A stretch of DNA of 33,683 bases from Planctomycetales bacterium (GCA_020426925.1 JAGQPC010000397.1:1-33683); one strand, 5' to 3'. Positions 2,215-22,256 are shown, counted from the stretch's first letter. Made by a program: numbers and translations. The notes: generated by a model from the letters alone, not told the origin.

Positions 2215-2745
2215 GCTTCGCGCCTGGCATCGCCTGCCGCGCGGCAATCATTGAATCTGCACTCACACGGGAGCGTGGTGCTCTTTGTCGTCTGCTTGCA
2301 CCTGACTAACTGGGGGGACCTAAAAGAATCTTAGCAGGCTTTTTCGTGCGGTTTATCACGTGGTTTCGCTCGATCGTGTTCCGTGTTCTTAATACGCTTC
2401 CTGACCAGTGCCTTTTCCGAATGTCTTCGATCCATTACTTTCGTTGGGAATCTTAATCTCAATCCGCCAGTTTGAGATCAACAAGAACACGGCCGGGGAA
2501 ATAACGTTCAACGCAGCCGTTTTTTCATATAAGATGGAGTCCGCGGTAGATTTGCGCGGATGGAGCTTGCGCGCGGAGTTTGTTGGTTGTCAGTGTGGCG
2601 TTGGGAGTAGATGCCTATGGAGTGCATTGTGGTGTGTAGTTGTTGAGTGGTTTGTCTCCTGACATCCGCTAGTTGAGTTTGCTTTAGTTTTTGAGCTGTA
2701 GATCGAGTTTCTAACGAGGAAAAAGACAAAGTGGTGGAGCGAAAC
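2215..2745. other. Intergenic region before the PEP-CTERM gene, no gene seen
   Basis: This 531-base stretch has no frame with protein-like composition. Near its left end is a perfect 12-base palindrome TGCCGCGCGGCA (2235-2246), 21 bases after the VOC stop, without a T-run. The right part (about 2400-2745) is more AT-rich and probably holds the promoter and a long leader of the secreted-protein gene; I could not pick -35 and -10 boxes with confidence. Confidence 0.4.
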
Positions 2746-4836
2746 ATGTTTAGATCTTTGAAGCTGGCGCTTGCAACAGGTGCCTTGGTTGGCTGGTTGT
2801 TCTGCAGCCATAGTTATGCGTTTGATGTTCTCGGAACGGGAACAGACGCACTTCTTGGCGGGGACCTGACTGACCCTGACGACAATGGCGATCCAGAAAA
2901 CGACGACGGCTATGACGCAATCTTTGATTCGAGTGACGAGCCAGGTTTTGGTGGTGGCGAATTCGCTTTCAATGTTTTTGACAATCGACTTGGCCCCAGC
3001 AACGACAAGTGGTGCTGTGGAGTTGGTGGTGGTATTTCGGAAGACGATCCGATCTGGGTTTCTGCTCAGCTTGACGTTCCCTACTTTCTGACGCACTTCA
3101 CCGTATCTTCTGCGAACGATGTTCCAGGCCGAGACCCAACCCACTGGGCGATTCAGGGATCCAACGACGGCCAGAACTACACCGACATCTACGTGTACGA
3201 CGACTTCTCTCCTTGGGACGAACGTTTGCAAGTAATTCAATGGACTGCTGGAGATGATTTTCCAGCTCAAACAACATCGTATGACCACTTCCGAATGGCG
3301 ACGTACAACACGGACACCAATCCTAGTGGTGCGTATTTTCAAATCGGCGAAATTGAATTTTTCGGTACTCCGGACGGAGATGTTCCACCGATCTTTATCG
3401 GCGGAGAAAACACGATCGGCGAAAGAACATACGGCTCAGACCAATCAAACAACGTATTCGGTGAAGTTGCCGACGGCGTGTCTGGTTTCAGTGCCCGAAT
3501 TGTTACGGCTGAAGATCACGGTTTAGGCCAGCTGGATAATCACACGATTGCCGAGGAAGCCTTGGACGAAGCCGAAGGCACAAAAGGCATTAACGCGTAC
3601 CGATTTGCTGACTTTGGTGGTGGCGGTGGAACTTTCGGTGAGACTCAGCCTTATCCAAACGGCGTAGCTGATACCAGCCAAAGCGACTTTGCTGTGCAAG
3701 TAACGGCAAACGTTAAGATTCCTGCTGGCGAATACACGCTTGGTTTCGGCTCGGATGACGGTGGACAACTTACGATTGCCGGTGTCGAGTTCACGCTTGA
3801 TGGACTCAGCAACGATGCCTTCGAAGATGACCAGATTCGATTCGAAGGAAACCGAGGTCACAACTGGACCACGGGTTCGTTTTCGCTTGACGCTCCTCTC
3901 GAAACTACACTTGTCGCATCGATGCACGAACGAGGTGGTGGAGACAGCTTTGAAATCGCGATCACAGAAGGCGATGTTCTAGACGAAGCGCCAAACGCAA
4001 ACGACTGGGAATTGCTGGCCGACGGAGTTCTTGACTGGGAAATCACGACCAGCGCAGCTCCGCTTTTGAGCGCTGATCTTTCGGCCGAAGCAAACTTCCC
4101 CGAAGGACGCGTAGTTCAATTCGACGTCAACGGTGACACAGGTGAGTCGGATCAACTTGCTATCGACAATCCAAATCCTGACGTTTACACCACCATATTG
4201 ACACTAGGTGACGGTTCCGCATTCGAGATCAATGCGACTGGCAACGTTAGCAGTGGCGAAGGCTTCACGATCATTAATGCAGACGTAATCAACGGTACGC
4301 CTACGATTACTTCGACGGTCGCAGGTCAGAATTGGGTCTTCGATGCTGCTACCGGTCGAGTTTGCTTGGACTTCTGCACTGGTGGTGGTGGCGATGTCGC
4401 TGGCGACTACAACGGCAACGGCATGCGAGACACCGGAGACCTCGATCTGCAAGCAGCCGCTATTGCTGCAAACGATCCGGCGTTTGATTTGAACGGTGAC
4501 GGAAGCACGAACCTAGCTGACCGTGAGATGTGGGTTAACGAACTCGCTAACACGTACATGGGTGACTCGAACTTTGACGGCCAGTTCAACAGTAGCGACT
4601 TCGTAACCGTATTCGGTGCAGCCAAGTACGAATCTGGGCAAGCCGCAACGTGGGGCGAAGGCGACTGGAATGGCGACGGCCTGTTTAATAGCACGGACTT
4701 CGTTGCCGCCTTCTCTGGTGGTGGCTACGAAAAGGGCGAACGTGCTGGAGGACTGCAAACAGTTCCAGAGCCATCTTCGTTTGCTCTCATCCTGTTCGGC
4801 ATGATTGGCTTGTCGCGAATCGTTCGACGCAAGTAG
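2746..4836 (+). CDS. PEP-CTERM secreted protein with discoidin-like domain and dockerin-like repeats
   Basis: This 696-residue protein has a signal peptide (MFRSLKLALATGALVGWLFC, cut likely after SHSYA). Residues 100-206 look like an F5/8 type C (discoidin) carbohydrate-binding domain: QLDVPYFLTHFTVSSAND, then HWAIQGSNDGQNYTDIY, ending in FQIGEIEFFG. Around 320-400 is a PA14-like sandwich (AGEYTLGFGSDDGGQLTI). Residues 545-665 hold four acidic DxNxDG-type loops of a planctomycete dockerin-like module (GDYNGNG, DLNGDG, GDSNFDG, GDWNGDG). The tail VPEPSS, a hydrophobic stretch and RIVRRK form a canonical PEP-CTERM signal, so the protein should be processed by an exosortase encoded elsewhere. 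GGAG at 2736-2739, six bases upstream, supports the ATG at 2746; a GTG at 2731 is an alternative. A terminator follows. Ligand unknown; a surface sugar-binding role is inferred. Confidence 0.88.
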   Translation: MFRSLKLALATGALVGWLFCSHSYAFDVLGTGTDALLGGDLTDPDDNGDPENDDGYDAIFDSSDEPGFGGGEFAFNVFDNRLGPSNDKWCCGVGGGISEDDPIWVSAQLDVPYFLTHFTVSSANDVPGRDPTHWAIQGSNDGQNYTDIYVYDDFSPWDERLQVIQWTAGDDFPAQTTSYDHFRMATYNTDTNPSGAYFQIGEIEFFGTPDGDVPPIFIGGENTIGERTYGSDQSNNVFGEVADGVSGFSARIVTAEDHGLGQLDNHTIAEEALDEAEGTKGINAYRFADFGGGGGTFGETQPYPNGVADTSQSDFAVQVTANVKIPAGEYTLGFGSDDGGQLTIAGVEFTLDGLSNDAFEDDQIRFEGNRGHNWTTGSFSLDAPLETTLVASMHERGGGDSFEIAITEGDVLDEAPNANDWELLADGVLDWEITTSAAPLLSADLSAEANFPEGRVVQFDVNGDTGESDQLAIDNPNPDVYTTILTLGDGSAFEINATGNVSSGEGFTIINADVINGTPTITSTVAGQNWVFDAATGRVCLDFCTGGGGDVAGDYNGNGMRDTGDLDLQAAAIAANDPAFDLNGDGSTNLADREMWVNELANTYMGDSNFDGQFNSSDFVTVFGAAKYESGQAATWGEGDWNGDGLFNSTDFVAAFSGGGYEKGERAGGLQTVPEPSSFALILFGMIGLSRIVRRK

Positions 4837-4873
4837 CGTATCGCGCTGACAAGATTTGTTAGCTGAATACAAG

Positions 4874-4903
4874 AGGCGGCTCGAACCACGAGCTGCCTTT
4901 TTT
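4874..4903 (+). terminator. Rho-independent terminator
   Basis: AGGCGGCTCG (4874-4883) pairs with CGAGCTGCCT (4889-4898), with one G-T wobble and a five-base loop. It is followed directly by a run of T (4898-4903). It lies 38 bases after the stop of the PEP-CTERM gene and insulates it from the next gene in the same direction. Confidence 0.88.
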
Positions 4904-5042
4904 GTTTGCCCAATTTGTACGCATGGGGGGGGCCGAGCTTTCCGAGCAAAAAATCCGTTTTCTTGGATACGGCGGAGTTTTGCCGTGAATATCTGGTTGT
5001 CGGAAAAATTCCGCATCCAAAACACGCGAAAGGACCTGCTCG

Positions 5043-8000
5043 ATGCCCTCTTTCTTCAAACGCTCTCGCCGAATCAAAAACCGAAAAAGAACCAATCCCA
5101 ATAAATCCATTCAAATTGAATCGCTCGAAAACCGACAGCTGATGGCCGCTGATCTGAGCTTCGACGCTCAACTGGTTCCACAGCGAGAAGGCCGAGAAGA
5201 CGCACTTGTCGCCATCGGGAAAGATTTCGGCGGTGGACTGCAACTGAAAGATCGAGCTCCGCGCGGAACAGACGGAGACCTTCACGAAGTCGACGTTGCC
5301 TACATCGGAGGTTCACCCGCAACGACCGGTGCTTTGCTCGTGTCCGCTGCCGGCACTGGCAGCGAAATTCAGCTGTCGTCTTGGCGAGCAACTAACGGCA
5401 ACCCAAGTCCAGTTCACCTGCACGACGCCCCAACGTTTTCCGGTTTTGACGCCGATATCCATCCGCTCACGCCGCAAACTCAGTTGGCGAATAGCCGTGA
5501 CACATTTATCGCCAGCCGTATCGGAACTAGCGGAGACCTCTGGCTGACGTCTCAAACGATCAATGCTGCGGGCGCGTTTACTGCACACAGCACTCGAGGT
5601 TTCGGGTCCAACATCAACTTCAAAGTTTTGGATCACGCGATCACTCACGCGCCGGCCAGCAATGGCGAATCGTCGACGCAAGTTATCACTCCTGTGATCG
5701 GCGAAAATTCGGAGGGTGATTTGGAATTGCGAGTTGTTTCGTGGCGAGTGTCGCACAACTCGAATGATGTCCAAGGGCTCAAGTTCTCCGATCCGCTGGA
5801 TGTGAGCTACCTGCCTGCCGATGGCGGCGGATTGTCAATCCATCACTCAACCGCTGGTATATTTGAGATTAACTTTAAGGACACCAGCGATCGGCTCGTC
5901 ACGCGGTACATCGCCGTAACTGATGACGGATTGATCCTTGATGCAGGTGGCGGCAATTCTGGTAAATCGTTCCGCGGCACAAACAACAGCTACTACGGCG
6001 ATGAGTTCGCAACGGTGAGACTCAACAGCCAATCGTTCATTGCAGTCAACCAACAAGATGAATCGATCGAGGCCACAGTTTGGGAGCGCCGCGTCGAAGG
6101 ATGCTTCTTTTTCTTGTGTTCGTTTGAACCGTACGAACTTGGGAACAGCGAAAACGACGAACGATCGACGCTGCCTGGAATTTCGTTTGATGAGCCGAAT
6201 CTAACACACGCCTACGGTACCAGCCCGGGAACGCGAGAATACTTTGGTTCCAGCATCGTGGCTGCTGACTTCAATGGAGACGGATTTAAGGATCTCGCCG
6301 TTGGAGCGCCGGGCCAAAAAGTTAACGGGAACGAAAACGCTGGTGCCGTTACGATTCTCTATGGCGGCGAGAGTGGCCTATACAACTCGCCGTTGACTCG
6401 CACGATTCATCAGGACACTCCTGGGCTCAACGGTGTTGCCGACGAGGGCGACCTCTTCGGATTTTCATTGGCGGCAGGTGACTTCAACGGAGACGGCAAG
6501 GACGATCTGGCGATCGGGGCTCCAGGCGAATCGATCGAAGCTGAAAACCTGACCGAATCGGGTGTTGTCCACATTTTGTACGGAACAAGTGAAGGGCTCT
6601 CGATGAGCACTGATCAGATCTTCCGACAAGGAGCCGATGGCGCCGAGGGCATTTCAGAATCGGGAGATCAGTTCGCCTGGTCGCTGGCGGCAGGCGACTT
6701 CAACGGCGACGGACGTGACGACGTCGCGGTTGGTATTCCGTTCGAAGATCACCTTCAAGGTGGCTATGTCGACGGTGGAGCCGTTCACGTTTTCTACGGT
6801 TCTCATCAAGGCATTCGCACAACGGACGATGTGACGTTCCACCAAAACTCCAACGGCATGTTGGGATCGACCGCTTCAGGTGATGAATACGGATACTCGT
6901 TGGCAACTGGCGATATCGACAACGATGGCCGCGACGATTTGGCCATCGGAATTCCTGGTAAGACGTTCTTTGGATTCGACGATGCCGGAGCAGTCCACAT
7001 CGTCATGGGCACTGCCGGTGGTCTCGGAACGGAAGACCAGCTGATCTCACAGGACGGCATCGACAACAATAACGGCGGATCCGGCGGTGACATCAGTGAC
7101 GGCACAGAAACTGGTGACCGGTTCGGACACGCGGTAGCGCTCGGCGACTTCAACGGTGACGGATTTGATGACCTCGCTGTCAGTGCTCCGGAAGAAGATC
7201 ACTCGGGATTCGTCAATGCGGGACGGGTCCACGTTTTGCAAGGGTCAGCCAGCGGAATCACGAACGCGAACGAAAAGATGTTCGATCAAGACTCGCCCGG
7301 AGTCGCCACGAGCGCGGAAACTGGCGGACGATTCGGACACTCGCTTGCAGCTGGTGAAGTCCACGGTGACTCCAAAGATGATTTGTTGATCGGAGTGCCT
7401 TACCAAGATCGCCAAGTCGGCAACGTGACCTACGCAAACACTGGCATTGCGATTCTGCTCAATGGCACCGGATCAGGAATTAGTGGCTTTGGAAGTAAAG
7501 CCATTCAGCAGGGCGTAAACGGAATCGATGGCGAAGGCAATCCTGGTGATCACTTTGGAGAAGCGGTTCCACTCGCCGATATGAACAACGATGGAAAAGA
7601 CGACGCGGTTATCGGCGTTCCTAACGAAATGGTGACGAAGCTTAGTTCTGAATATGACTTCGCCGGCCAAGTGCAAATTGTATTCGCCGACGATTCTGGA
7701 TCGGGTTTGTCGTCAAGCGACACCGTTTGGGTTCAGGGCGACACAAAACACATTCGTGCAAAGCTTGCCGATTCGGGTTGGGAACAGCAGTACGTAGTTG
7801 GTAATGGTGAACTTTATGAATTGATGCCAGAGGGAGAAATTCTCCCTGAACACGCGGCAAGCGTTACGAAAACGATGACGCTGCTTTTAGCGTCGGAAGC
7901 GCTCGACATGCCCAACTCGCCAATTTCGCTGTCAGACGTCGTTACGATCAGCGAGAAAGCTGGAACCACGGGCGGCAGCAAGATGACAGGCACGCTCGAT

Positions 8001-9497
8001 GGCGAAGAAGCACTGCTCGAACCTGGCGATCAGATCACGTTGGAGGCACTGCTCTACGGCATGATGATCCATTCAGGCAATCGAGCGTCTGTCGCGATTG
8101 CTGAGCACATTGGAATCAACGTTTACGGAGCCGATGCCAGCGATGAAGACGCTCCATTCAACGCGTTCGTCGATCACATGAATACTCGAGCCGAAGCGAT
8201 TCCACTGCCCGCGACTCGCTATGGTCATCCGGCTGGCGGTAGCACAACGACGCCGCAAGACTTGATCACGTTCTGGCGAGAAGCTTGGAAAAACTCGACG
8301 TTCCGAACATACGCCGCAGCCGACGCGGCCTACCCAAACAACCCTGCGACGACGGTCAACACAGACGAGCCCAAAGAATTCACGCTTTCGCGAACGAAAA
8401 GCTACGTTGGTCACGATGGCTGGAAAGGTGGCCATGGCAAAGTCGGCGATGTGTTCGACAAGAACGGCAACGAAATCTCTGCCCCGATTTGCGATCAGTG
8501 TCACGTCGGCTCGGCGACTCGCGGTGGCCACACTTTGATCGTTGGCATCCAGCAATCGAAAGAAGACATGTACAACGCCGAGCAGCTTTACGATTTCGGA
8601 TTCAAGAAGCTGTTTACGCCGGACTTGCGGGGCACGAGTGACTTTCAATCAAAAGGCGGCGGCGGGATCGTGATCGCTCCAGGCACGCCGGTGATGGGCG
8701 ACCTTCGGGCGATTGCTCTCGATCACATCACCGGCAACGCGATTGTTTCGGCAAGCGTTGACGGTAACCAGCATCTACAGATTCGAATCTGGAACGCGAA
8801 CGTTGGCAGTGGCCAAATCGATGTGATTGGCGGAACGATTGTCTCTGTCGAGGACTTGGCTCCAGCGGTTGGCGATGTCAAACGCGACACCGTAATCGAT
8901 GCTGTCGAAATGCCATCGTCCGGAAAAATCCTGGGCGACTACGTTAGCGGCATGATCTCCGGCGGCAACTTGCGGCTGGACGCCTGGCGAGTCGGGGCTG
9001 ATTACGTGAAGCCGGCTGAATTCGTACCGATTGACGTCATCGGTGATTTCACCGGCGACCGCGCGGTTAATGAGCTGGATATCGAACGGCTAGGTGTGGA
9101 AATCAATTCGCGAACACCTAACTTGGAATTCGACTTGAACCACGATCAGAAAGTTGATCGCGAAGATCTTGCGCAGCTGATCGATGACGTAATGGGCTCG
9201 ACGATTGGCGACTCGAATCTGGACGGGCGTTTTGATTCGGGCGATTTGGTTCAGGTCTTCAAGGCCGGAAAATACGAAGATGGAGTTCGAAACAATGCGA
9301 CTTGGGCAGAAGGCGATTGGAACCAGGACGGAGATTTCGATTCCGGCGACCTAGTGTTCGCGTTTACTCGCGGCAGTTACTTGGCGCGGGCTCAATCTGA
9401 ACGCGACGTTGCTGCGTCGGTCGATGCTCTATTGGCGATGGAATCTGATCTGCACGACGATGATTTGACGGTGAACGGCCGTCGGGCGGTGATCTGA
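5043..9497 (+). CDS. Giant exported protein: FG-GAP propeller fused to an S11 (D-Ala-D-Ala carboxypeptidase-type) domain and dockerin-like repeats
   Basis: This 1484-residue protein starts with a basic segment and ESLENRQLMAAD (about residues 26-37), the planctomycete LEPR-XLL-type export motif. Residues 40-400 are unassigned. From 409 to about 870 there are seven FG-GAP/integrin-alpha repeats, each with a calcium loop plus LAxGxP (DFNGDGFKDLAVGAP and relatives), enough for a seven-bladed propeller. Residues about 915-1190 resemble peptidase S11: SVTK (S940, K943), SGN (1011-1013), a KGG in place of KTG (1128-1130), then SATRGGHTLIVGI. The family trims peptidoglycan peptides outside the membrane. 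A CDQCH sequence (1150-1154) interrupts the usual C-terminal part of this domain. The end (about 1345-1465) is a dockerin-like module closely resembling that of the previous gene; there is no PEP-CTERM tail. AGGA at 5031-5034, eight bases upstream, supports the start. Activity is unproven. Confidence 0.88.
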   Translation: MPSFFKRSRRIKNRKRTNPNKSIQIESLENRQLMAADLSFDAQLVPQREGREDALVAIGKDFGGGLQLKDRAPRGTDGDLHEVDVAYIGGSPATTGALLVSAAGTGSEIQLSSWRATNGNPSPVHLHDAPTFSGFDADIHPLTPQTQLANSRDTFIASRIGTSGDLWLTSQTINAAGAFTAHSTRGFGSNINFKVLDHAITHAPASNGESSTQVITPVIGENSEGDLELRVVSWRVSHNSNDVQGLKFSDPLDVSYLPADGGGLSIHHSTAGIFEINFKDTSDRLVTRYIAVTDDGLILDAGGGNSGKSFRGTNNSYYGDEFATVRLNSQSFIAVNQQDESIEATVWERRVEGCFFFLCSFEPYELGNSENDERSTLPGISFDEPNLTHAYGTSPGTREYFGSSIVAADFNGDGFKDLAVGAPGQKVNGNENAGAVTILYGGESGLYNSPLTRTIHQDTPGLNGVADEGDLFGFSLAAGDFNGDGKDDLAIGAPGESIEAENLTESGVVHILYGTSEGLSMSTDQIFRQGADGAEGISESGDQFAWSLAAGDFNGDGRDDVAVGIPFEDHLQGGYVDGGAVHVFYGSHQGIRTTDDVTFHQNSNGMLGSTASGDEYGYSLATGDIDNDGRDDLAIGIPGKTFFGFDDAGAVHIVMGTAGGLGTEDQLISQDGIDNNNGGSGGDISDGTETGDRFGHAVALGDFNGDGFDDLAVSAPEEDHSGFVNAGRVHVLQGSASGITNANEKMFDQDSPGVATSAETGGRFGHSLAAGEVHGDSKDDLLIGVPYQDRQVGNVTYANTGIAILLNGTGSGISGFGSKAIQQGVNGIDGEGNPGDHFGEAVPLADMNNDGKDDAVIGVPNEMVTKLSSEYDFAGQVQIVFADDSGSGLSSSDTVWVQGDTKHIRAKLADSGWEQQYVVGNGELYELMPEGEILPEHAASVTKTMTLLLASEALDMPNSPISLSDVVTISEKAGTTGGSKMTGTLDGEEALLEPGDQITLEALLYGMMIHSGNRASVAIAEHIGINVYGADASDEDAPFNAFVDHMNTRAEAIPLPATRYGHPAGGSTTTPQDLITFWREAWKNSTFRTYAAADAAYPNNPATTVNTDEPKEFTLSRTKSYVGHDGWKGGHGKVGDVFDKNGNEISAPICDQCHVGSATRGGHTLIVGIQQSKEDMYNAEQLYDFGFKKLFTPDLRGTSDFQSKGGGGIVIAPGTPVMGDLRAIALDHITGNAIVSASVDGNQHLQIRIWNANVGSGQIDVIGGTIVSVEDLAPAVGDVKRDTVIDAVEMPSSGKILGDYVSGMISGGNLRLDAWRVGADYVKPAEFVPIDVIGDFTGDRAVNELDIERLGVEINSRTPNLEFDLNHDQKVDREDLAQLIDDVMGSTIGDSNLDGRFDSGDLVQVFKAGKYEDGVRNNATWAEGDWNQDGDFDSGDLVFAFTRGSYLARAQSERDVAASVDALLAMESDLHDDDLTVNGRRAVI

Positions 9498-9546: not shown

Positions 9547-12500
9547 TCAGTCTTCGTCGAGGACGTGACGAATTTTTTCCAGCATCACGTTGGTGGAAGC
9601 TCCTTTTTCGAAGAACTCGACGTTCCGCAAGTGAGCAGCTGCGGTTCGATCGGCCGTGTACCCCGAAGAATAGATGACCTTAACGTGTGGATACTGCTGG
9701 TTGATGATTGCACCAAGCTCAAAACCGTCCATCTCAGGCATGGTCACATCGGTCAGCAACAGAGAAATATCGCCGGAATGCTCCGCTACTTTTTCGAGTG
9801 CTTCACTGCCACTTTTGGCGCCAATGACCGAGTAGCCGACACACTCCAGCAAGGCAGACACGGCCGACAAGACAATCTCTTCGTCATCGCAGACCAAAAT
9901 AGTTTCCGATCCGCCGCTTTCTGCGATCTCGTTCGAGTCATGTGCGTGTTGGATTGGCTGGTCTGTCATGGGAAGGTGCACGCTGATGATAGTTCCCTCG
10001 CCTTCCGTACTGTTGACGGAAACGAATCCGTTGCATCTCGCGATATCGGAGTAGACGGTCGACAATCCGAGCCCTGTTCCCTGTCCCGCTGGCTTTGTCG
10101 TAAAGAACGGCTCGAACGCACGTCGTAGCGTTTCTTCGGACATTCCGCAGCCAGTATCGGTGACCTTGATTCTCGCGTAAGAACCCGCTTTTCGCTGACC
10201 GGTCGAATCATCTTTGTCCAAGCGATAGACATCGGTTTGCACGTCAAGACTACCTTCTGCGACGATCGCATCACGCGCATTGAGAATAATGTTCAGCAGT
10301 GCTTGCTCTAGATCGGATTCATCAGCGAGGACAAGAAGTGGAGGTGAGCACAATTGAACGGTCAGGTTGATACGATGACCAATGAGTCGCCGAAACATAG
10401 GCTCACTATTGGTCACCAATTGATTCACGTCAAAGACAGCCAAATTTGCGTCTTTCTTCCGAGCAAACGAGAGCATCTGCTGTGTCAGAGTTGACGCACG
10501 CGCACATCCACGTTCGATTTCCTTGAGCGAATGCATTACGCCATCAGACAACTTTTCATGATGCGACAACAACAGCAACTCTGCATTGCCGCGAATTGCC
10601 ACAAGAAGATTGTTGAATTCGTGAGCGACTCCTGCGGCCAGTTGCCCAATCGCTTCCATTTTTTGGGCATGGTGTAGTTGCGCTTGCAGCGCTCGGTTCT
10701 GTTCTTCCGCGAGTTTGCGTCGAGTCACATCTCGAGAGGCAACCGTCAACCCGTTGATTTCACCGTCCACGATTCGGGGAGAAACACGCGACTCATAGTA
10801 AATGCGTTCACCGCCGCGCGGTTCAAATTCCGTCTCATAATCAGCGGCCTCGCCGGTACGAAGTACTTGCTCAAGTATTCCTTTGATCTTGTTTTTCTGG
10901 CCATCGAGCACGTAGGAATAAAGCGGAGTTCCAATGAGCTCGTCGACAGTTAAGCCAGGTGACGCGTAGTTACAGAAGTCGATTTTCAGATTGGAATCCA
11001 GCGTCAAAACGTGATCAGGCGAATGTTCGGTAAGCGAACGCCATCGAGCTTCCGACGCTCGAAGCGCCTCTTCGGCTACTTTCCAATCAGTGATATCTGT
11101 CCAGGCTGTCTGAACGTATGGTTTGCCGCCGATATGAATCAGGCTCGCTTCGACGCGAACGTCTCGTATATCACCGTTCTTAGTTCGGTGTTTCGTCTCA
11201 AATGAATCGGCACCTTCACTGAGGATCTTCTGCATATGCTCGGCAATATCTTCGAAAGACATCTGCGCTTCGAAGTCGAGAAAATTCAGTTGCTCGAATT
11301 CTTCTCGACTGTAGCCGAGGCAGACATGCGTTTGCTCATTGAATTCGACGATGCTTGTCGATGTTGGATCGATCAACGCACTGGAATGGGCAACTTGTTC
11401 GAAGATCGCTCGAAACCGTTCTTCCGATTCTCGCAAGGACGCTTCCGCCTTCATTCGTTCTGTGATTTCACGAGTGACCGAAAGAGAAGCCGTAATTCCT
11501 CCCTCTGAGTTTCGCAACGGGACGTAATGCGATTCCATCCACCGCCGAGTGCCATGCAGACCAATGATTTCGAACTGAAGAACTCCGGATTCCCCGGTGA
11601 AACTCGCTTCGTTCGCAGCGATGAACTTAGATCGGTGCTCTGGCACAACCACCGGATAGATGCACTGCCCACGAACCTGTTCCAACGAGTCCGCTTCAAT
11701 CATCGCCAGTCCCGCGGCATTCATATCTAGAAGCCTGCCTTCGGGATCCAGCAGCTTGACGCATTCCGGTTCCGATTCAAATACAGTTCGGAATCGCTCT
11801 TCACTGTCACGAACAGTCAGTTCCGCCGATTTCCGATCAGTAATGTCGTGGAACGTTCCCTGAATCGCGACGATCTGTTCGTCTTGAATGACAGGAGCTC
11901 CTTTGCTGCTTGCCCATCGGACAGTCCCATCCGGTCGGACGATTCTATGCTCGAATTCAAACGCCGCTCCCTCACAAGCACAGTTTTGGAGAATGGCCTT
12001 GAACTGCGATGTGTCTGCTGGATGGACGATCCGATTCACATAATCATCCTGACAAGGAAGCTGCTCGCTGGGATCCATTCCGACGATTCGATAACATTCT
12101 TCCGACCAATATTCAGGTTCGCACGATGGAACGTGCAAACGAAAAGTACCAATATGAGCAACTTGCTGCGCGTCGTGCAAAAACGCTCTGTTTTCCTGCA
12201 GTTCTTCTTTTGTCCGGCGACGCTCCCTGATCTCAGCTAGTAGCCGTTGATTCGCTTCCGAAAGTTCCGCTGTGCGTTGCTTGACGCGTTCCTCCAATTC
12301 AGCATTCAGTCGCGATAGCTCTGCTTCAGCCGATTTGCGGGCCGTTACATCACGAAAGAAAGCTCGCGTGGAAACCGGAGTGTCGCCCTCAAACGTGCAA
12401 CTTGCGTTCCCTTCTACGAAGACTTCCCTACCGTCTTTTGCGATGAACGTCGCACTAATCTCTGCGTGGCGACTACCAGACAGAAGTTCTTGAAACACCT

Positions 12501-13080
12501 TCTGGCATTCTGGTTTGCAGTCAGGACGCACGATATCGAACACGGTAAGGTGGTTCGCAAGTTCGTCGCTTGTATATCCAAGCGTTCGTTGCCATGCCTG
12601 GTTCACGTAGTCAAACGTTCCATCGGGATTCACGCACTGAATCAAATCCGTTGTATTTTCGATCAAATCCCGATAGCGGGCTTCGCTTTCTCGTAATCGC
12701 TTTTCGGCTTCGACGCGTTCACCAATCTCACGGACAATACCGAAAACCAAGTTCTTTCCGCGCAGAGTAATTGGCTGAGTGCGAATCTCTACCGAAACTC
12801 GCCTACCGCCTTTTTGCGCCAGAACAAATTCCGTTGGTCCGGTGGGATTACCTGCCAGGTTCGATGCCAGAAGAGCGGCTGCTTTGGGAACGTCGCGCAG
12901 ACGCAAGAGCCCAACCGCAAGGAAATTCCTGCCGATCAGTTCCCGTCTCGAGTAGCCGACAAGTTCCTCAGCAGCTCTGTTGCCATCGACAAAGGTGCCC
13001 TTGAGATCACTCAAATAACAAGCGTCAGGAGCACACTCGAAAACGTTTCGAAAATCATCGTTGTCCGTCTCGAAAATCAT
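9547..13080 (-). CDS. Multi-PAS hybrid sensor histidine kinase with C-terminal receiver
   Basis: This 1177-residue protein has no signal peptide or membrane segment, so it is a cytoplasmic sensor. I count six PAS domains, roughly 10-120, 142-250, 305-415, 430-540, 555-670 and 680-790, several ending in the DITxRKxAE linker, with a coiled coil near 250-295. The kinase core follows: the H-box GVAHEFNN with phospho-acceptor H820, an N-box (LEQALLNIILNARDAI), and G-boxes (VTDTGCGM, GQGTGLGLSTVY). A receiver (about 1060-1177) has the acidic pair CDDEE and phospho-acceptor D1111 in LLTDVTMPEMDG. The order PAS-HisKA-HATPase-REC is typical of hybrid kinases passing phosphate on to a separate Hpt or regulator, none of which is encoded nearby. 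A purine-rich site (AGGAAAGGAAGG) precedes the start. It converges on the preceding rightward gene with a 49-base gap. The signal sensed is unknown. Confidence 0.93.
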   Translation of the reverse strand: MIFETDNDDFRNVFECAPDACYLSDLKGTFVDGNRAAEELVGYSRRELIGRNFLAVGLLRLRDVPKAAALLASNLAGNPTGPTEFVLAQKGGRRVSVEIRTQPITLRGKNLVFGIVREIGERVEAEKRLRESEARYRDLIENTTDLIQCVNPDGTFDYVNQAWQRTLGYTSDELANHLTVFDIVRPDCKPECQKVFQELLSGSRHAEISATFIAKDGREVFVEGNASCTFEGDTPVSTRAFFRDVTARKSAEAELSRLNAELEERVKQRTAELSEANQRLLAEIRERRRTKEELQENRAFLHDAQQVAHIGTFRLHVPSCEPEYWSEECYRIVGMDPSEQLPCQDDYVNRIVHPADTSQFKAILQNCACEGAAFEFEHRIVRPDGTVRWASSKGAPVIQDEQIVAIQGTFHDITDRKSAELTVRDSEERFRTVFESEPECVKLLDPEGRLLDMNAAGLAMIEADSLEQVRGQCIYPVVVPEHRSKFIAANEASFTGESGVLQFEIIGLHGTRRWMESHYVPLRNSEGGITASLSVTREITERMKAEASLRESEERFRAIFEQVAHSSALIDPTSTSIVEFNEQTHVCLGYSREEFEQLNFLDFEAQMSFEDIAEHMQKILSEGADSFETKHRTKNGDIRDVRVEASLIHIGGKPYVQTAWTDITDWKVAEEALRASEARWRSLTEHSPDHVLTLDSNLKIDFCNYASPGLTVDELIGTPLYSYVLDGQKNKIKGILEQVLRTGEAADYETEFEPRGGERIYYESRVSPRIVDGEINGLTVASRDVTRRKLAEEQNRALQAQLHHAQKMEAIGQLAAGVAHEFNNLLVAIRGNAELLLLSHHEKLSDGVMHSLKEIERGCARASTLTQQMLSFARKKDANLAVFDVNQLVTNSEPMFRRLIGHRINLTVQLCSPPLLVLADESDLEQALLNIILNARDAIVAEGSLDVQTDVYRLDKDDSTGQRKAGSYARIKVTDTGCGMSEETLRRAFEPFFTTKPAGQGTGLGLSTVYSDIARCNGFVSVNSTEGEGTIISVHLPMTDQPIQHAHDSNEIAESGGSETILVCDDEEIVLSAVSALLECVGYSVIGAKSGSEALEKVAEHSGDISLLLTDVTMPEMDGFELGAIINQQYPHVKVIYSSGYTADRTAAAHLRNVEFFEKGASTNVMLEKIRHVLDED

Positions 13081-13433: not shown

Positions 13434-15113
13434 CTATCGTTGGATCAGTCTGCCGTCGCGTCGCAGCACTCGGCCAAAAACGCCGAGAGCAAAAACCGCT
13501 GTTAGTAGGAGTTCGCGTGTCTTGGGTTCTGGCACGAAGCCGGCGCGAATCGTTTTGTTTGGCGTCGACTCGAGTGCGAAATCGCGAATGATGAGCGAGT
13601 CGTCTTCGGCCGTTTCGGCACGAATCCAACCGTAGTGAAATTGATCGTCAACTTGTAAACGCACGCCAAAGAATGCGCTGTCTCGGTCATTAAATGTCAA
13701 CGAATTAAGCGTTAACGGAACATCGGAAAATCGAGACGTCGGTCCGATCGGCGTGCCGGTCGCCAATAAACCGATGCCGTCGCCGTCCACAGCGATCTCA
13801 GCCAAACCTATCCCTTCAATTTCAGCTTCACCAAACGGGAAGAAGAAATCGTCCAGTACGTGTTCAATGTGCGACCGCTCAATACGCACTGTATCAACTG
13901 CAGCGTCAACAATCTCAAGTGAATTTAGGGCAAGATAATTGCTCGTCACATTTATTTCTGACAGGTTTGCAAAAACGTTTCCGACGACGCCCAATCCTAA
14001 ACTCGATGAATGCAGCGAGCGGAGCGTAAAGTCAACGTTTGGATGAGGCGGACCAACTGCAAACGAAAGCGACTCATTAGAAACCATAACGACTCCCAAG
14101 TTTCCAACTGCCGTTATGGCATCATCAATGTCGTTAGACAGCACAGCAATCGTCAGCCCTCTTGCTAACCCGTTGTCGGCCGTGACGACGTTTCCTTGTC
14201 CGTTGAATTGATGCCCACCGATTGTCGCAACGATATCTACTCCAGCGGCTACGGTCTCGGTTGTTCCAATAGACGTCGAACCTTGCATTCCCGCTGCCAC
14301 ATTGGAGATTATTGCAATCTCGCTCGCGGAACCGAACGTCGTCGTTTGTAGTCTCAGCGTTCCGGCGTCTAATCCACTCGAGGCAATGTGAGCTGTGACT
14401 CCGGTGTAATCGGTAAAACTGTTAACGCGGTCTCGAACTTGAGCTCGCGTCATACCTTCAAATAAATCGACCTTCACGCCGTTGATTGTTAGTGTCTCGT
14501 CCTGGCCAAGCAGTATTGGTAACGCCGCGAGGTTGGTGACAAATGACGCTCGTTCAGCTGCCGTGGCAATGGTGACCGCGTGGCTTCCCGCGAACGTGGT
14601 ACCATCAACGTTTAGGACTTGGACCGAGCTACTGCTCGCCAGTCCCTGAAATCCCGAGTCGCCGTTCAGGAGAACTCGGTCTCCGTACACCGTATGGTTT
14701 GCGATACGATCAATTCGTTCCAGTTTGCTCTCGATCGACGATTGATTGCTCAGCAGTGCGTCAAAATCATTTACGCCTTCGTTCGCGGATGAAAGGGCGA
14801 TTTGGCGTATTTCTTTCAGAAGCGAAGCTGTTTCGCGCTGGCCCAGTTGAGCTGCTTGAAGCAAATCGAATGCATTCTTATCTAGGACTCCATCACCACG
14901 AAGATAGTGGTGAGTCACCGACACGTCCGAGATCCCGTCTCGATTTAAGTCGATTGGAAAAGTCATCGGGTGAACCAACACAGCATCGGTGTCGGAGAAC
15001 TCCCACGACCCGAGCACGTGCTGGTCTGCCGGGTTCGTGTAGATGATTGCGGAACATGCTTCGCTAACAAAAAGTGTAGTTGCCAACACGCTATAGATGA
15101 AGATTCGAACCAT
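13434..15113 (-). CDS. PEP-CTERM protein with internal flagellin-like module (paralogue 2)
   Basis: This 559-residue protein has a signal peptide (MVRIFIYSVLATTLFVSEAC, cut near CSA). Residues 23-72 and 435-525 look like the two halves of a common PEP-CTERM beta-sandwich (IDLNRDGISDVSVTHHY early; QFHYGWIRAE and FALESTPNKTIRAG late). Between them lies a flagellin-like segment. Residues 82-154 resemble the D1 helices (LLQAAQLGQ, KEIRQIALSSANEG, LERIDRIANHTVYGDRVLLN). Residues 165-325 contain DETLTINGVKVDL and NVVTADNGLARGLTI, like the Flagellin_IN variable region. Residues 370-428 (SSSLGLGV, LSEINVTS, SLEIVDAAVDTV) resemble the returning C-terminal D1 helix. The flagellin D0 ends are absent. 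The tail is a weak PEP-CTERM variant, VPEPKTRELLLTAVFALGVF then basic residues. GGAGG five bases upstream fixes the ATG at 15113; the annotated paralogue ends 33 bases upstream, implying an operon. Function unknown. Confidence 0.87.
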   Translation of the reverse strand: MVRIFIYSVLATTLFVSEACSAIIYTNPADQHVLGSWEFSDTDAVLVHPMTFPIDLNRDGISDVSVTHHYLRGDGVLDKNAFDLLQAAQLGQRETASLLKEIRQIALSSANEGVNDFDALLSNQSSIESKLERIDRIANHTVYGDRVLLNGDSGFQGLASSSSVQVLNVDGTTFAGSHAVTIATAAERASFVTNLAALPILLGQDETLTINGVKVDLFEGMTRAQVRDRVNSFTDYTGVTAHIASSGLDAGTLRLQTTTFGSASEIAIISNVAAGMQGSTSIGTTETVAAGVDIVATIGGHQFNGQGNVVTADNGLARGLTIAVLSNDIDDAITAVGNLGVVMVSNESLSFAVGPPHPNVDFTLRSLHSSSLGLGVVGNVFANLSEINVTSNYLALNSLEIVDAAVDTVRIERSHIEHVLDDFFFPFGEAEIEGIGLAEIAVDGDGIGLLATGTPIGPTSRFSDVPLTLNSLTFNDRDSAFFGVRLQVDDQFHYGWIRAETAEDDSLIIRDFALESTPNKTIRAGFVPEPKTRELLLTAVFALGVFGRVLRRDGRLIQR

Positions 15114-15146
15114 CTTTTCCTCCATGATGATGATGGCCGCTTGGGC

Positions 15147-16820
15147 TCAGTTGGATTTGCCTGGAGCTTTTGCAGCTCGCCCTACAAGCACAGCGACAAT
15201 CCAAATCACGGTTAAAACGCCACTCGAAGGTTCCGGAATAAAGCCGGCTCGAATCGATTTATTCGGAATCGACTCGAACGCAAAATCACTGATCACCAGT
15301 GATTCATCTTCTGCAAGTCTGGTTCGAATCCAGCCGTAATGAAACTGATCGTCGACGTGCAAGCGAACTCCTAGCAACCCGCTCTCGTGTCCGCGAAAGT
15401 CGTGCGAATCAATCGCGAGTGTCAGGTCTGAAAACTCCGACGCGGGACCGATGGTTGCTCCGGTATCGAGCACGAGGCTGCCCCCGTTGACCATCAAGTC
15501 TGAAAGCCCCAGACCGGCGATTTCTGATTCGCCGAAGGGAAAGAAGTAGTCATCCAGCACATTATCGATTTGCCCGGTTTCACTCTGAACCGTGTCGATC
15601 GCAGCATCGACTATCTGAAGCGAGTCTTGCGCTTTCGTGACGCTCGTTACATCTATCTCAGCGAGATTCGCGAACTGATTTCCGAACTGCCTCAGCCCCA
15701 ATCTTGTTGAATCCAGAGCTCCAAGGCTTACTTCGACATTGGGAAGCTCAGGCGAATCGACGACAAAGGAGAGCGACCGGTCGTAAATGAATACATCGCC
15801 TAGTTCGCCGGATTCCGTTTTGAAATCGTCCCGAGGAGACGGCGATACGGAAAAAGTAACGCCACGAGCCGGTCCGTCATCAATCGTCACGACATTGCCG
15901 TGCCCCGTGAATTCCTGTCCGGCGAATTCAACGACGATATCAGAACCGGCACGACTGATTTCTGTTCGACCGATGGTAGTCGAATTTTCCGTCGCTCCAG
16001 GTAAGTTGGAGATTACGGTCAATTCCCGTGCAGGGCCGAATAGTGGAGTTTGCAGTCGTAGCTCACCGCCGACGTTGAGTACTGCGTGTATACCCGAATG
16101 CGATGAGAAGTCGTTAAATCGATCTCGTACTTGTGTGTTGGTCATGTCCTCAAACAAGTCGATTTTGACGCCGTTCAGCGTAATTGTCTCGTCTTGAGCG
16201 AGTGTCCGCGCAAATTCGGACGCTGTTTGAAAGTAAGCTCGTTCGCCCGGAACAGTCACGTTCAAACTGTATGATCCCTGATTCGCAGTGCCATCGACAT
16301 TCAGAACGCGAACTGCAGGACTTGTCGTCGTCCCCATTTTTCCTGCGTCGCCATTTAGCAAAATCCTGTCGCCAAATACCGTGTTTTCAGCAACTCGGTT
16401 AAGAGTATCGATGTGGTTGTCGATGATGGCTTGATTTTCCGCGAGGGCGTCTGCATCTCCGCCTTCGTTCAACGTCGATAATGTTCTATCGCGGATGCTG
16501 CCGAGCAATTCTAAGATTGTTTCTTGACCTAACTGAGCAGTCTGAAGAAGATCGACCGCATTTCGGTTGATTCTTCCATGCGTCCGAATGTAGTGGTGAG
16601 CAATCGCTACGTCGGGAATGCCGTCACGATTGAGATCAACTGGCACTTCTGCTGGCCGTACCAAAACGGCGTCAGCATCCGAAAACTCCCACGTTCCGAT
16701 CGCGTGTCGATCTGGTGGATTTGAATAGATGATTTCAGCGTGCGCTTCGCGAGCGATCAAGCCAACGCAAATGCAAAAGAATGCCAACGCGCAGAACCGG
16801 GCCGATTTCAGTCGATTCAT
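15147..16820 (-). CDS. PEP-CTERM protein with internal flagellin-like module (paralogue 1)
   Basis: This 557-residue protein is first in the two-gene leftward operon and similar to paralogue 2 along its whole length. The signal peptide is MNRLKSARFCALAFFCICVG followed by LIAREAHA. The outer shell is residues 29-80 (VDLNRDGIPDVAIAHHYI) and 435-525 (QFHYGWIRTRLAEDESLVIS, FAFESIPNKSIRAGF). The inserted module covers residues 88-430. It has LLQTAQLGQ with GSIRDRTLSTLNEGGDAD and IDTLNRVAENTVFGDRILLN, which follow the flagellin N-terminal D1 pattern (LLQTAEGAL, RIRELAVQAANGT, EIDRIAxxTxFNGxxLL). It also has DETITLNGVKIDLFEDMT (Flagellin_IN-like) and LAEIDVTSVTKAQDSLQIVD (C-terminal D1-like). The tail IPEPSSG, a hydrophobic segment and GRAAKAPGK is a recognisable PEP-CTERM signal. 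AGGGAG just upstream supports the ATG at 16820; a GTG at 16838 is an in-frame alternative. Confidence 0.87.
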   Translation of the reverse strand: MNRLKSARFCALAFFCICVGLIAREAHAEIIYSNPPDRHAIGTWEFSDADAVLVRPAEVPVDLNRDGIPDVAIAHHYIRTHGRINRNAVDLLQTAQLGQETILELLGSIRDRTLSTLNEGGDADALAENQAIIDNHIDTLNRVAENTVFGDRILLNGDAGKMGTTTSPAVRVLNVDGTANQGSYSLNVTVPGERAYFQTASEFARTLAQDETITLNGVKIDLFEDMTNTQVRDRFNDFSSHSGIHAVLNVGGELRLQTPLFGPARELTVISNLPGATENSTTIGRTEISRAGSDIVVEFAGQEFTGHGNVVTIDDGPARGVTFSVSPSPRDDFKTESGELGDVFIYDRSLSFVVDSPELPNVEVSLGALDSTRLGLRQFGNQFANLAEIDVTSVTKAQDSLQIVDAAIDTVQSETGQIDNVLDDYFFPFGESEIAGLGLSDLMVNGGSLVLDTGATIGPASEFSDLTLAIDSHDFRGHESGLLGVRLHVDDQFHYGWIRTRLAEDESLVISDFAFESIPNKSIRAGFIPEPSSGVLTVIWIVAVLVGRAAKAPGKSN

Positions 16821-16971
16821 GTTGTGTCTCCCTCTCACCCCCTAATCGGATGCGGAGTCACGAAAACTTGGTCGAGATTTCCGGAAGTTGCCGCAACAAA
16901 AATCGGCTGTCCGCACTAGCGATGGCTGGTAAACTAAACCATCAAAATTCTCATATCAGGAGGAGTTGAAA
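16821..16971. promoter_or_regulatory. Divergent promoter region
   Basis: This 151-base gap lies between the leftward flagellin-like operon and the rightward oxidoreductase gene, so both promoters should be here. The rightward gene has a very strong ribosome site, AGGAGGAG (16958-16965), six bases before its ATG. No clear operator palindrome or sigma-54 (GG-N10-GC) element was found by eye. Confidence 0.45.
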
Positions 16972-18407: not shown

Positions 18408-21400
18408 GTGGCAGATTCGCAATTAAAACGGAACCAGTTGCTTCGCGCGCTGTCCGTGCAAACTCAATTAGTATCGCTCGACGACGCGACAACCGCAGCT
18501 GGAGAAGCGGAACGCAGTTCTCGGTCGATCTCGCAAATCCTTGTACAGCAGGGCAAGATCAATAAGGATCAAGCATCAAAACTTGATTCGCTGTGCGATT
18601 CTTATGTCTCGGTTCACGATGGGAGCTACGACGATTCAGTTGCCACGCTGTGCCGGGAAATGGCGTTTGGCGTGGCGGATCCAGACGCTCCCACCGCGAT
18701 TCGAAACTTTCGTCTTGAAGCGAGAGCTGAAAAAGCTGCTCAGCTGCCGTCGAATGCTCAAACGGATCTATCTAGGTATCAAATCCTGCGACCGCATGCC
18801 AAAGGCGGATTGGGCGAAGTCTTCGTTGCTCTGGATGGCGAACTCAATCGCGAAGTCGCGTTGAAGGAGATTCAGCTTCAACACGCGCACGATGAATCGA
18901 TGCAAAAGCGATTTCTGTTGGAAGCAGAGGTGACCGGGAAACTTGAACACCCGGGTATCGTGCCGATTTACGGACTAGGAGTTCACGCGGACGGTCGGCC
19001 GTATTACGCGATGCGGTTTGTGCACGGTGACAATCTGGAAGACGCGATTAAACGATTCCACGAATTCCGAGTTGATGACGAAGATCGGACGCTTGTCTTC
19101 CGGGGACTCCTGCAACGGTTCGTGGACGTCTGCCAGTCCGTTGCGTTTGCCCATAGTCGTGGCGTCCTTCACCGTGACCTCAAGCCGAGCAACGTAATGC
19201 TTGGAAGCTTTGGCGAAACGTTGGTAGTCGATTGGGGATTGGCGAAGATGATCATTCCCGACGAAGGTGACGATTTCGATTCAGATCTTCCTTCGCCGAC
19301 CAAAGAAGGTTCTCACCAATTCGCTCAGACTCACCAGGGATCTGCAATCGGTACGCCAGCGTACATGAGTCCCGAGCAGGCCGCCGGGCAGCTTGATTTG
19401 ATCGGACCAGCGTCCGATATCTATTCGCTTGGAGCGACGCTGTACCACATTGTTACTGGACGGCCTTCGCAAAAAGACAAGATTCTTGCTGAGATGGTGT
19501 CAGATATCCAAACTGGTAACTTTCCGCGCCCGCGCGAAGTCAAAAGTCTTGTTCCGCGGCCGATCGAAGCGATCTGCTTGAAAGCAATGTCACTGCGAAT
19601 AGCAGACCGGTACGCTTCAGCGCTCGAACTTTCCGACGACGTAAATCGGTATCTCGCTGATGAATCTGTTACCGCGTGGCATGAACCTGTTACCGTTCGA
19701 CTGCGACGCTGGTTGCGCAGACACCAAACTGCGGCATCATCAATCGCAGTGGCTCTATTGGTAGCGGCCGCATCAATGGCGGTCTTGTCTTTTGTTGTGA
19801 CCGAAAAGAACACGAAGCTGTCGATCGCTAACGAAAAAGAGCGCGCCGCGCGAGAACTAGCCGAAGCGAACGAAGCAGTTGCCAAGGCTCAGTCTCAACT
19901 CGCGCTGGCAACTTTGACATCAGTGATTCATGACATCGAACAAGGGCTTCACGGGCTGTCCAGAGGCAGTGACATTCGCCGACGGTTGCTTGCTACTTCC
20001 ATGCAAAACCTCCGGAAGGTTTCGACCCAGTTTGTTAGCCAAGCTTCTGTTGACAGCGCTAATCTAGACGCACTGATGAGTATGGCGGACGTCGTGGCTC
20101 AGTTCGGAACTGAGGAACCTGGTAGTCTTCAGCCCGGAACATCCGCTCAACAAGTGGCCATTGAGCTGTATTCAAAAGCGAAAGAAATAGCGGCACAACT
20201 AGTGGACCAAGATCCAGACGACGAATTGCGATCAACGCTGGCACTGTGCCGTTGTCGACTCGGGAAGCTCTTGATTGAGGCAAATCAAAGCGAAGAGGCC
20301 GAAAAAGAATTCACTGCTGCCCTGAAAATCCACGATCGGCTGTTGCAATCAAACCAATCTCCGCAGAATCAAACGGACGTCGCGTTAACGTATGCTCAGC
20401 TCGCTGAGGCCACCGCGAACCGTCAACAAGTTAGTGAAGGGTACATCGATAGGGCGCTGCAAATGATTGACCAGATTGACGCCTCGCGACTGAGCAGCGA
20501 AACCGTATTCGATCTGTCGTTAGCACTTGCTCGCATCGGCGATCTCATGCAAGGTCGGTCTGAACCGAAAGCGGCGATTCCACATTTAGAAAGTGCATTG
20601 GGGATGGGGCGGAGTCTTCTTGAGCGTGATTCAACCAATTCGATCTATCGACGCCACACCTCGACACTTCTTGAACGATTGGGTATGGCTCACGAGCGGC
20701 AGCACGACACCCTGACCGCTAAAAGAATCTACGAAGAAATGTTGCAATTCAAACAGGAACTCGTTGACGACGACCCTGCAGATCTAATCGCGAAACTTGA
20801 ACTCGGAATTACGTATCGTCACCTGGGCGACGTTGCAGCCGACGACGCGCAACGACTCAATGCCTATCAACAATCTGACACTGTCCTTGAAGAGCTAACG
20901 CTACAAGATCCGAGCAACCCGCTCTTTATTCAGCCGCGAATGCTGACACTGGCAGGACTTGCCGTGGCGAATCACCGATTGGGGAATCTCGATGAAGCCA
21001 AACGAGTGTGGGAAACGAGCCTCGCTGAACGCCGCCGGTTCGCAGAAATCAATAGCAACTACGAAAACGTGATCGCTGAAAGCCAAGCATTGGTCCAGCT
21101 CAGCTTGCTCTCAATTCAGGTGAGACAACCTGCGGAGGCCATACGACAGCTCGATGAAGCCCTTGTGCGATTGAATAGCGTGCAAGGGACGCCTGCGATT
21201 CAGGCGACTATCGTCGATGTATTGGTGCGAAAAGGCAGTATCCTGGAGTTTGTCGGCCGGACTGATGAAGCCGAACAAACGTTCACTCAAATCGACAAGA
21301 TGGTTGACGAATTGATTGTCGAAACAACTAGCGGCGAGCCCACATTGTCAAATGCGGAAATCTTGGCGGGCCTCGGTGAGAACATCAGCAGCCGCGCTCA

Positions 21401-22256
21401 ACTGGCGGAGAAACTTTTTGCCGAGGCCATTCGTCTATCAGATGCTGCGCCAGAATCACAAAACCTTGATGATGTGCGGAAAACGTCAACTTGGTACGAA
21501 CGTCTTGGAATGATCTGTGAAGGTCTCAGCAAGTTTGACGCAGCGCTGGAACATTACGACGCGATGGCAAAATTGAAACAGAAGATCGCGATTGAAGATC
21601 CGCACAATGAAATGGCACAAGTAGAATTGGCGATCGCGTTGCGTCATCTAGGCGATATCGAATGGCGACGTTCTGACTCAGGCAAAGCACTTGAACACTA
21701 CCAAGAATCCGGTCAAGTTTCCCAATCGTTTTTGGAAACGACCAATCGTTGGGGAAGGAACCATCTATCAACGCTCTACGGTCGGCTAGGTGCGTTACAA
21801 CGCGAGCGAAACGAGCTTGATGACGCAATCCGCAGTTTTCAATCGAAGCTAGAGGTCGACCTTCGTTTCTACAAACAACAGCCAAAGGATGTCACTCAAC
21901 GCGTGAATCTGACGCAAGCCTACGCGAACCTGGGCGACCTGCTAACGGAAGTGAATCGGGTTGCAGAAGGGCTCCAAAACTATCGCGAGTCTCGAGCAAT
22001 CAGCGACCAGCTGCGTTCGGAATTCGCCAACAACGTAGAGCATCAACGGACTTATGTCATCATCTCAAACAAGCTTGCCGCGGCGTTTGTTGGCATCAAA
22101 GACTACGCATCGGCTACAGATGTCTACGAAGACGTTCGCTCGACACTTCAACAATTCATTGAATCCGGATTTGACAAAGATGCATCACAAGTCGAACTCG
22201 AAAAGGTCGAAGGGTCTTTGGAAAACGTCAAATCGCTGCACAGCGAAGCTAAATGA
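18408..22256 (+). CDS. Membrane-anchored Ser/Thr protein kinase with large TPR region
   Basis: This 1282-residue protein has an N-terminal planctomycete kinase extension (1-120), a PknB-type kinase domain, and a long repeat region. The kinase begins near YQIL (124) with a glycine loop (AKGGLGEVF), the ATP lysine K153 in VALKEI, the catalytic loop HRDLKPSN (H255, D257), the metal site DWG (D275) in place of DFG, and the activation segment GTPAYMSPEQ. All catalytic residues are present. One membrane segment at about 444-464 (SSIAVALLVAAASMAVLSFV) is followed by a short coiled coil (NEKERAARELAEANEAVAKA). About 800 residues of TPR-like helix pairs follow (for example AKRIYEEMLQFKQELVDDDP). The kinase should face the cytoplasm and the TPRs the other side, if the single segment crosses. 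A GTG at 18408 is the only plausible start, with a weak ribosome site. Targets unknown. Confidence 0.92.
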   Translation: MADSQLKRNQLLRALSVQTQLVSLDDATTAAGEAERSSRSISQILVQQGKINKDQASKLDSLCDSYVSVHDGSYDDSVATLCREMAFGVADPDAPTAIRNFRLEARAEKAAQLPSNAQTDLSRYQILRPHAKGGLGEVFVALDGELNREVALKEIQLQHAHDESMQKRFLLEAEVTGKLEHPGIVPIYGLGVHADGRPYYAMRFVHGDNLEDAIKRFHEFRVDDEDRTLVFRGLLQRFVDVCQSVAFAHSRGVLHRDLKPSNVMLGSFGETLVVDWGLAKMIIPDEGDDFDSDLPSPTKEGSHQFAQTHQGSAIGTPAYMSPEQAAGQLDLIGPASDIYSLGATLYHIVTGRPSQKDKILAEMVSDIQTGNFPRPREVKSLVPRPIEAICLKAMSLRIADRYASALELSDDVNRYLADESVTAWHEPVTVRLRRWLRRHQTAASSIAVALLVAAASMAVLSFVVTEKNTKLSIANEKERAARELAEANEAVAKAQSQLALATLTSVIHDIEQGLHGLSRGSDIRRRLLATSMQNLRKVSTQFVSQASVDSANLDALMSMADVVAQFGTEEPGSLQPGTSAQQVAIELYSKAKEIAAQLVDQDPDDELRSTLALCRCRLGKLLIEANQSEEAEKEFTAALKIHDRLLQSNQSPQNQTDVALTYAQLAEATANRQQVSEGYIDRALQMIDQIDASRLSSETVFDLSLALARIGDLMQGRSEPKAAIPHLESALGMGRSLLERDSTNSIYRRHTSTLLERLGMAHERQHDTLTAKRIYEEMLQFKQELVDDDPADLIAKLELGITYRHLGDVAADDAQRLNAYQQSDTVLEELTLQDPSNPLFIQPRMLTLAGLAVANHRLGNLDEAKRVWETSLAERRRFAEINSNYENVIAESQALVQLSLLSIQVRQPAEAIRQLDEALVRLNSVQGTPAIQATIVDVLVRKGSILEFVGRTDEAEQTFTQIDKMVDELIVETTSGEPTLSNAEILAGLGENISSRAQLAEKLFAEAIRLSDAAPESQNLDDVRKTSTWYERLGMICEGLSKFDAALEHYDAMAKLKQKIAIEDPHNEMAQVELAIALRHLGDIEWRRSDSGKALEHYQESGQVSQSFLETTNRWGRNHLSTLYGRLGALQRERNELDDAIRSFQSKLEVDLRFYKQQPKDVTQRVNLTQAYANLGDLLTEVNRVAEGLQNYRESRAISDQLRSEFANNVEHQRTYVIISNKLAAAFVGIKDYASATDVYEDVRSTLQQFIESGFDKDASQVELEKVEGSLENVKSLHSEAK

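Follow-up and report, generated by a model that had tools for sequence, protein, structure and literature searches.

The S11 DD-carboxypeptidases, among them E. coli PBP5 and PBP6, the Streptomyces K15 enzyme and the DacF-like proteins of Clostridia, are the closest described counterparts of a putative hydrolase domain that is embedded in a giant planctomycete protein. The likeness extends to the fold of the helical half, to the spacing of the SxxK, SGN and K-x-G motifs and to a Cys that opens the next strand in many of these enzymes, as in the fusion protein. The fusion protein departs from them, however, in having KGG or KAG in place of KTG and SGNR in place of SGND, an insertion of ~9 residues before the G(D/E) turn, a deletion of 4 residues in the PHGL loop, and, after motif III, an insertion of ~15 residues that brings an additional Cys. 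Furthermore, its S11 domain lies inside a chain of 1484 residues and lacks the C-terminal domain or membrane anchor that such enzymes usually have.

A second comparison is offered by the housekeeping S11 protein of planctomycetes, which comes from the same phylum, carries an S11 domain and is presumably exported. In the host genome (G000, contig C203, L002:259-2328), Pfam identified this protein as a combination of Beta-lactamase2, PG_binding_1 and S11 domains. It differs from the fusion protein in its partner domains, in its canonical LLPSGNDA and VKTGTT motifs, in its location on another contig and in its separate branch in the tree. Proteins of ~690–750 aa with class A β-lactamase-like, peptidoglycan-binding and canonical S11 regions were seen at many Pirellulales-type loci (L007, L049, L073 and others), the own-genome copy being assigned by Pfam and the others judged by length and motifs.

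The third known system is that of the bacterial integrin-type FG-GAP propellers (PMC3192720), which are matched in the fusion protein by seven repeats, six of them with clear DxNxDGxxD loops; here, unlike in the described examples, the propeller directly precedes an S11 enzyme. The fusion protein is a rare, new assembly from known parts. Planctomycete peptidoglycan enzymes and giant exported proteins have been little studied, and if the reading favored below is true, a penicillin-binding-type hydrolase would be carried in a calcium-dependent integrin-like scaffold, a class of wall-maintenance enzyme having moved to an extracellular task.

The window, meaning the whole stretch of 33,683 nucleotides that was analyzed, contains one uninterrupted open reading frame at 5043–9497 on the + strand, which starts with ATG and encodes 1484 aa. 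The order of domains in the product is putative planctomycete export motif, propeller-like domain, seven FG-GAP repeats, Peptidase_S11, blade-like stretch and dockerin-type C terminus. The features are as follows.

4871–4901, + strand: terminator-like hairpin (13 pairs, T-rich tail) separating the fusion gene from its upstream neighbor
5028–5034, + strand: Shine-Dalgarno-like GAAAGGA, recognized by sequence (AAAGGA lies 8 bases before the ATG)
5043–9497, + strand: gene for the fusion protein (open reading frame and Pfam; ortholog L022)
5043–5153, + strand: basic N terminus and putative planctomycete export motif SLENRQLMAAD (Pfam PF07595, 20.5 bits, under the cut-off of 25.5)
5277–6197, + strand: N-terminal domain, residues 79–385, with β-propeller-like blades and a conserved C354/C359 pair (pLDDT, fold matches, 42% identity to the ortholog)
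6243–7679, + strand: seven FG-GAP repeats of an integrin-type propeller (Pfam; the DxNxDGxxD calcium loop is clear in six)
7722–8633, + strand: Peptidase_S11 or SxxK serine hydrolase domain, residues 894–1197 (Pfam, PDB sequence search, model superposition)
7860–7871, + strand: motif I, S940-V-T-K943 (invariant with the ortholog; aligned structurally with SxxK of PBP5 and K15)
8073–8081, + strand: motif II, S1011-G-N1013, followed by R and not the usual D (ortholog alignment, S11 census)
8424–8432, + strand: motif III, K1128-G-G1130 (KTG in other S11 domains, KAG in the ortholog, KGG in a decayed copy)
8439–8504, + strand: insertion of ~15 residues after motif III and C1150-x-x-C1153-H (ortholog and S11 alignments)
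8691–9017, + strand: post-S11 stretch, residues 1217–1325, with blade-like repeats (43% identity; the N-terminal blades match it weakly by profile)
9042–9380, + strand: dockerin-type module at the C terminus, predicted to bind calcium (Dockerin_1 profile)

The identity of the central domain was confirmed by several matches. Pfam placed Peptidase_S11 at residues 936–1070 with an E value of 2.2e-18 and a score of 67.1 bits (cut-off 27.6), and the ortholog also scored over the cut-off at 60.9 bits. Among PDB sequences, the S11 domain matched the Streptomyces K15 DD-transpeptidase (4.4e-14) and P. aeruginosa PBP5 (7.8e-11), and SxxK (S940/K943) and SGN (S1011/N1013) were found at the spacing of the S11 family. 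In an AF2 model of the domain built on an alignment of 52 sequences, the helical half, including SxxK and SGN, was mostly at pLDDT ≥90 and superposed on E. coli PBP6 with Z 19.2 and an rmsd of 1.7 over 142 residues; on the same scale PBP5 scored Z 18.5, K15 15 and class A β-lactamases 13.7. In a longer model, the aligned stretch started at 807 against PBP5 39 and at 804 against K15 27, which places S940 on Ser44 of PBP5 and Ser35 of K15 if this first aligned stretch is ungapped. The strand that bears motif III and K1128 in the C-terminal sheet was modeled at low confidence (pLDDT 28–59). The initial annotation had made it a test whether S940, K943, S1011 and K1128 come together in a model; the first three are located in the confident core, whereas the placing of K1128 depends on alignment. 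Its coordinates and residue positions were found to be as given, and the S11 domain, the dockerin-type repeats and the seven FG-GAP repeats that it described were all recovered by Pfam. It had overlooked the N-terminal domain at ~79–385 and the strand-rich stretch of ~110 residues after S11.

We favor, at a probability of a little under one-half, the interpretation that this protein is an active, exported, scaffold-held SxxK serine hydrolase of the S11 type with changed specificity. In the predicted reaction, S940 would attack a peptide or amide bond to form an acyl-enzyme with the assistance of K943, S1011 and K1128, and water would then release the product.

The case for changed specificity centers on motif III. 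When the domain was aligned with 15 S11 proteins from outside the phylum, DGWKGGH fell on DG(L/I)KTGH, which identified K1128 as the motif III lysine, an assignment that rests on alignment because the modeled strand is of low confidence. Alignments with planctomycete S11 proteins were split and mostly chose K1140-N-G, which was also the default MAFFT and hhalign result. That candidate was rejected, as K1140 is Glu in both relatives of the fusion protein and K1128 was obtained in both pairwise and multiple alignments with non-planctomycete S11 proteins (one of eight pairwise alignments still chose K1140). All three copies of the fusion protein keep K1128, and the middle residue of the motif is G in the window, A in the ortholog and G in the decayed copy. 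A census of 71 other S11 domains returned KTG in 68 and KNG in three, and never G or A in the middle; 64 of the 71 have D after SGN, where the fusion protein has R. Of the motifs that were initially assigned to the S11 family, SVTK and SGN have the family spacing; in the third, K and G are conserved, but KGG/KAG departs from S11 practice and lacks the hydroxyl.

In penicillin-binding proteins, the Thr/Ser hydroxyl of KTG helps to bind the terminal carboxylate of the substrate. Loss of this hydroxyl, together with the insertion carrying C1150, suggests from the sequence that substrate recognition is altered in the fusion S11 domain. C1150 and H1154 are special to the fusion-protein family, and C1153 occupies the position of a Cys that is frequent in S11 proteins. 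A probable disulfide joins C1150 and C1153; the protein has four cysteines in all, arranged as two conserved close pairs, which makes disulfides a simpler reading than heme. The C-x-x-C-H at 8490–8504 in the S11 domain is formally a heme c motif and is kept in all three copies; heme attachment was rejected as the main reading on the basis of the common S11 Cys position and the two close Cys pairs. With the motif III hydroxyl lost, SGNR in place of SGND and a loop capable of forming a disulfide, a plain D-Ala-D-Ala carboxylate would probably not be recognized, and the substrate may instead be an altered one, for example, an internal peptidoglycan bond or another extracellular peptide. The altered motif III also gives a direct handle on the part that this residue plays in substrate choice.

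These departures bear on the possibility that the protein is an ordinary DD-carboxypeptidase or transpeptidase that trims the peptidoglycan of its own cell from a larger scaffold. The nearest folds and sequences are indeed DD-carboxypeptidases and DD-transpeptidases. However, the genome already has a canonical S11 protein, which the fusion S11 domain does not resemble as a copy would, the domain diverges at motif III and SGND, and the gene, which occurs in only two genera, has decayed in a genome of one of them. We consider this explanation rather unlikely, and the fusion protein is most likely distinct from the housekeeping S11 enzyme of the genome. A quick tree placed the two fusion S11 domains outside a clade of 34 planctomycete S11 domains (SH-aLRT 87) and grouped them weakly with PBP5/DacF types (83). 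An origin as a recent copy of the housekeeping domain is disfavored by this tree, in which support is modest and the fusion branch is very long at 2.64 changes per column; owing to the long branch, the exact source of the domain is unsure.

The distribution of the gene was searched with the S11 domain as query. One full-length homologue (L022 in G395) was recovered from a different genus of the same family; it has 1541 aa, 54% identity and the same domain order. Conservation of the architecture at this identity in another genus means that the fusion did not arise by chance or from a frame artefact. A decayed copy is present in G470, which belongs to the same genus as G395 (L065:9150-10582, − strand). 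In this copy, residues ~124–1098 (~2.9 kb) are deleted and the rest, which retains the K1128 segment, is interrupted by in-frame stops and has a few ambiguous bases. No other FG-GAP and S11 fusion was found among 241 genomes of the family, 396 sampled from the order or 392 sampled from the phylum, and contig scans yielded no further relatives. The other matches were S11 proteins of other architecture, and those retrieved for inspection had no FG-GAP-like repeats. The combination was likewise not found in the open-access papers searched. The gene is real, very rare and known from two genera, in keeping with the earlier description of the domain combination as unusual, and its decay in a relative indicates that it is dispensable.

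Identity to the intact ortholog was 63% for S11 and 62% for FG-GAP but 49% for the dockerin module and 42–43% for the flanking domains; the better conservation of S11 and FG-GAP indicates, from sequence comparison, purifying selection on the core. S940, K943, S1011, N1013, K1128, G1130 and H1131 are invariant between the two genera. A mutated binding module could also have kept these letters, and in such a pseudoenzyme the S11 fold would bind peptidoglycan or another ligand without turnover. Motif III without a hydroxyl and SGN followed by R, both unlike the S11 domains compared, as well as the long tree branch would fit this alternative. A pure binder could nevertheless lose some of the nucleophile, the two lysines, S1011 and N1013, all of which are kept across two genera, and S11 is among the two best-conserved domains. 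The earlier suggestion of a simply dead enzyme is thus argued against, and we regard a pseudoenzyme as rather unlikely.

An active hydrolase would be positioned by the modules that surround it. The protein is predicted to be exported and probably held at the surface or in a matrix. The exported chain proposed in the initial annotation agrees with a Planc_extracel motif (PF07595) at residues 24–37, which scored 20.5–22.5 bits and thus just under the Pfam cut-off of 25.5; the corresponding motif of the ortholog, ETLEPKILLAGD, is visible, though without a match to the profile. The FG-GAP repeats (seven stretches, E 7.1e-71) and the dockerin module are predicted to bind calcium and would hold or position the S11 domain. 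Against a cut-off of 22.9, Dockerin_1 scored 36.8 bits with the C terminus alone, 28.7 in the genome scan and 21.5 with the whole protein. At least 136 dockerin-type matches, that of the fusion protein among them, were found in the host genome, and no match to cohesin (PF00963) was found in the host assembly (9.15 Mb, 83% complete), whose planctomycete type is marked by the PF07595 motif and by the kin recovered with S11 queries. The dockerin module is a general one in proteins of this genome and is no evidence of a cellulosome, and a cohesin-dockerin assembly is not supported.

The N-terminal domain was modeled as propeller blades at residues ~159–300 (pLDDT 72–93), which matched propeller structures with Z 10–12. 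Photorhabdus PLL/PHL seven-bladed lectins gave the best fold matches, superposing on the blades with Z ~12 over ~135 residues; they share 16–17% identity with the fusion blades and lack a sequence-level match. Other propellers scored nearly as high, so that a lectin identity for the modeled blades is only a lead. The domain had no PDB sequence match, and weak matches to HtrA-like proteins were judged to be chance. The model of residues 129–1328 was of low confidence overall, including the FG-GAP part and the domain arrangement, and gave no Foldseek match at E ≤0.001.

In a low-confidence model, residues 1217–1325 have a strand pattern resembling that of the N-terminal domain, and the two regions have diverged equally strongly. 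A profile test for a split propeller was only suggestive, the score of the window C terminus being matched by 52 of 1000 shuffles and that of the ortholog being better; hhalign of the N-terminal blades against the post-S11 stretch was weak as well. A plausible hypothesis is an outer seven-bladed ring of five blades before and two after, with the FG-GAP and S11 core inserted between them. The fuller proposal, that of a nested scaffold in which a split seven-bladed propeller encloses an integrin-type propeller and a separate surface S11 subfamily with KGG/KAG, a disulfide-capped loop and a substrate other than D-Ala-D-Ala, is rather unlikely.

The fusion gene is probably transcribed on its own: it is flanked by terminator-like hairpins (the second at 9553–9572, 3′ of the gene), although chance often produces such matches here, and its downstream neighbor is encoded on the opposite strand. 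None of the flanking genes is common to the three genomes with fusion copies, and there is no conserved operon or neighborhood. This bears on a role in antagonism or predation, in which contact with other bacteria would let the enzyme attack their peptidoglycan. Putative export, surface display and an enzyme class that works on peptidoglycan would suit such a factor, but no immunity gene or secretion cluster was seen among the annotated genes of the window, the neighbors are not conserved, and the data give no hint of a target cell; the role, raised in the initial annotation, is highly improbable.

The upstream protein (2731–4836, + strand) has an F5/8-type C domain and a PEP-CTERM-like end, both below cut-off, and a dockerin-type module in common with the fusion protein. 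Downstream, a hybrid histidine kinase that combines many PAS domains with HisKA, HATPase and receiver domains is encoded at 9547–13080 (− strand), followed by a tandem pair of genes at 13434–15125 and 15147–16838 (− strand), each encoding 563 aa with weak flagellin N-terminal matches, and by a Ser/Thr protein kinase of 1282 aa fused to TPR repeats at 18408–22256 (+ strand).
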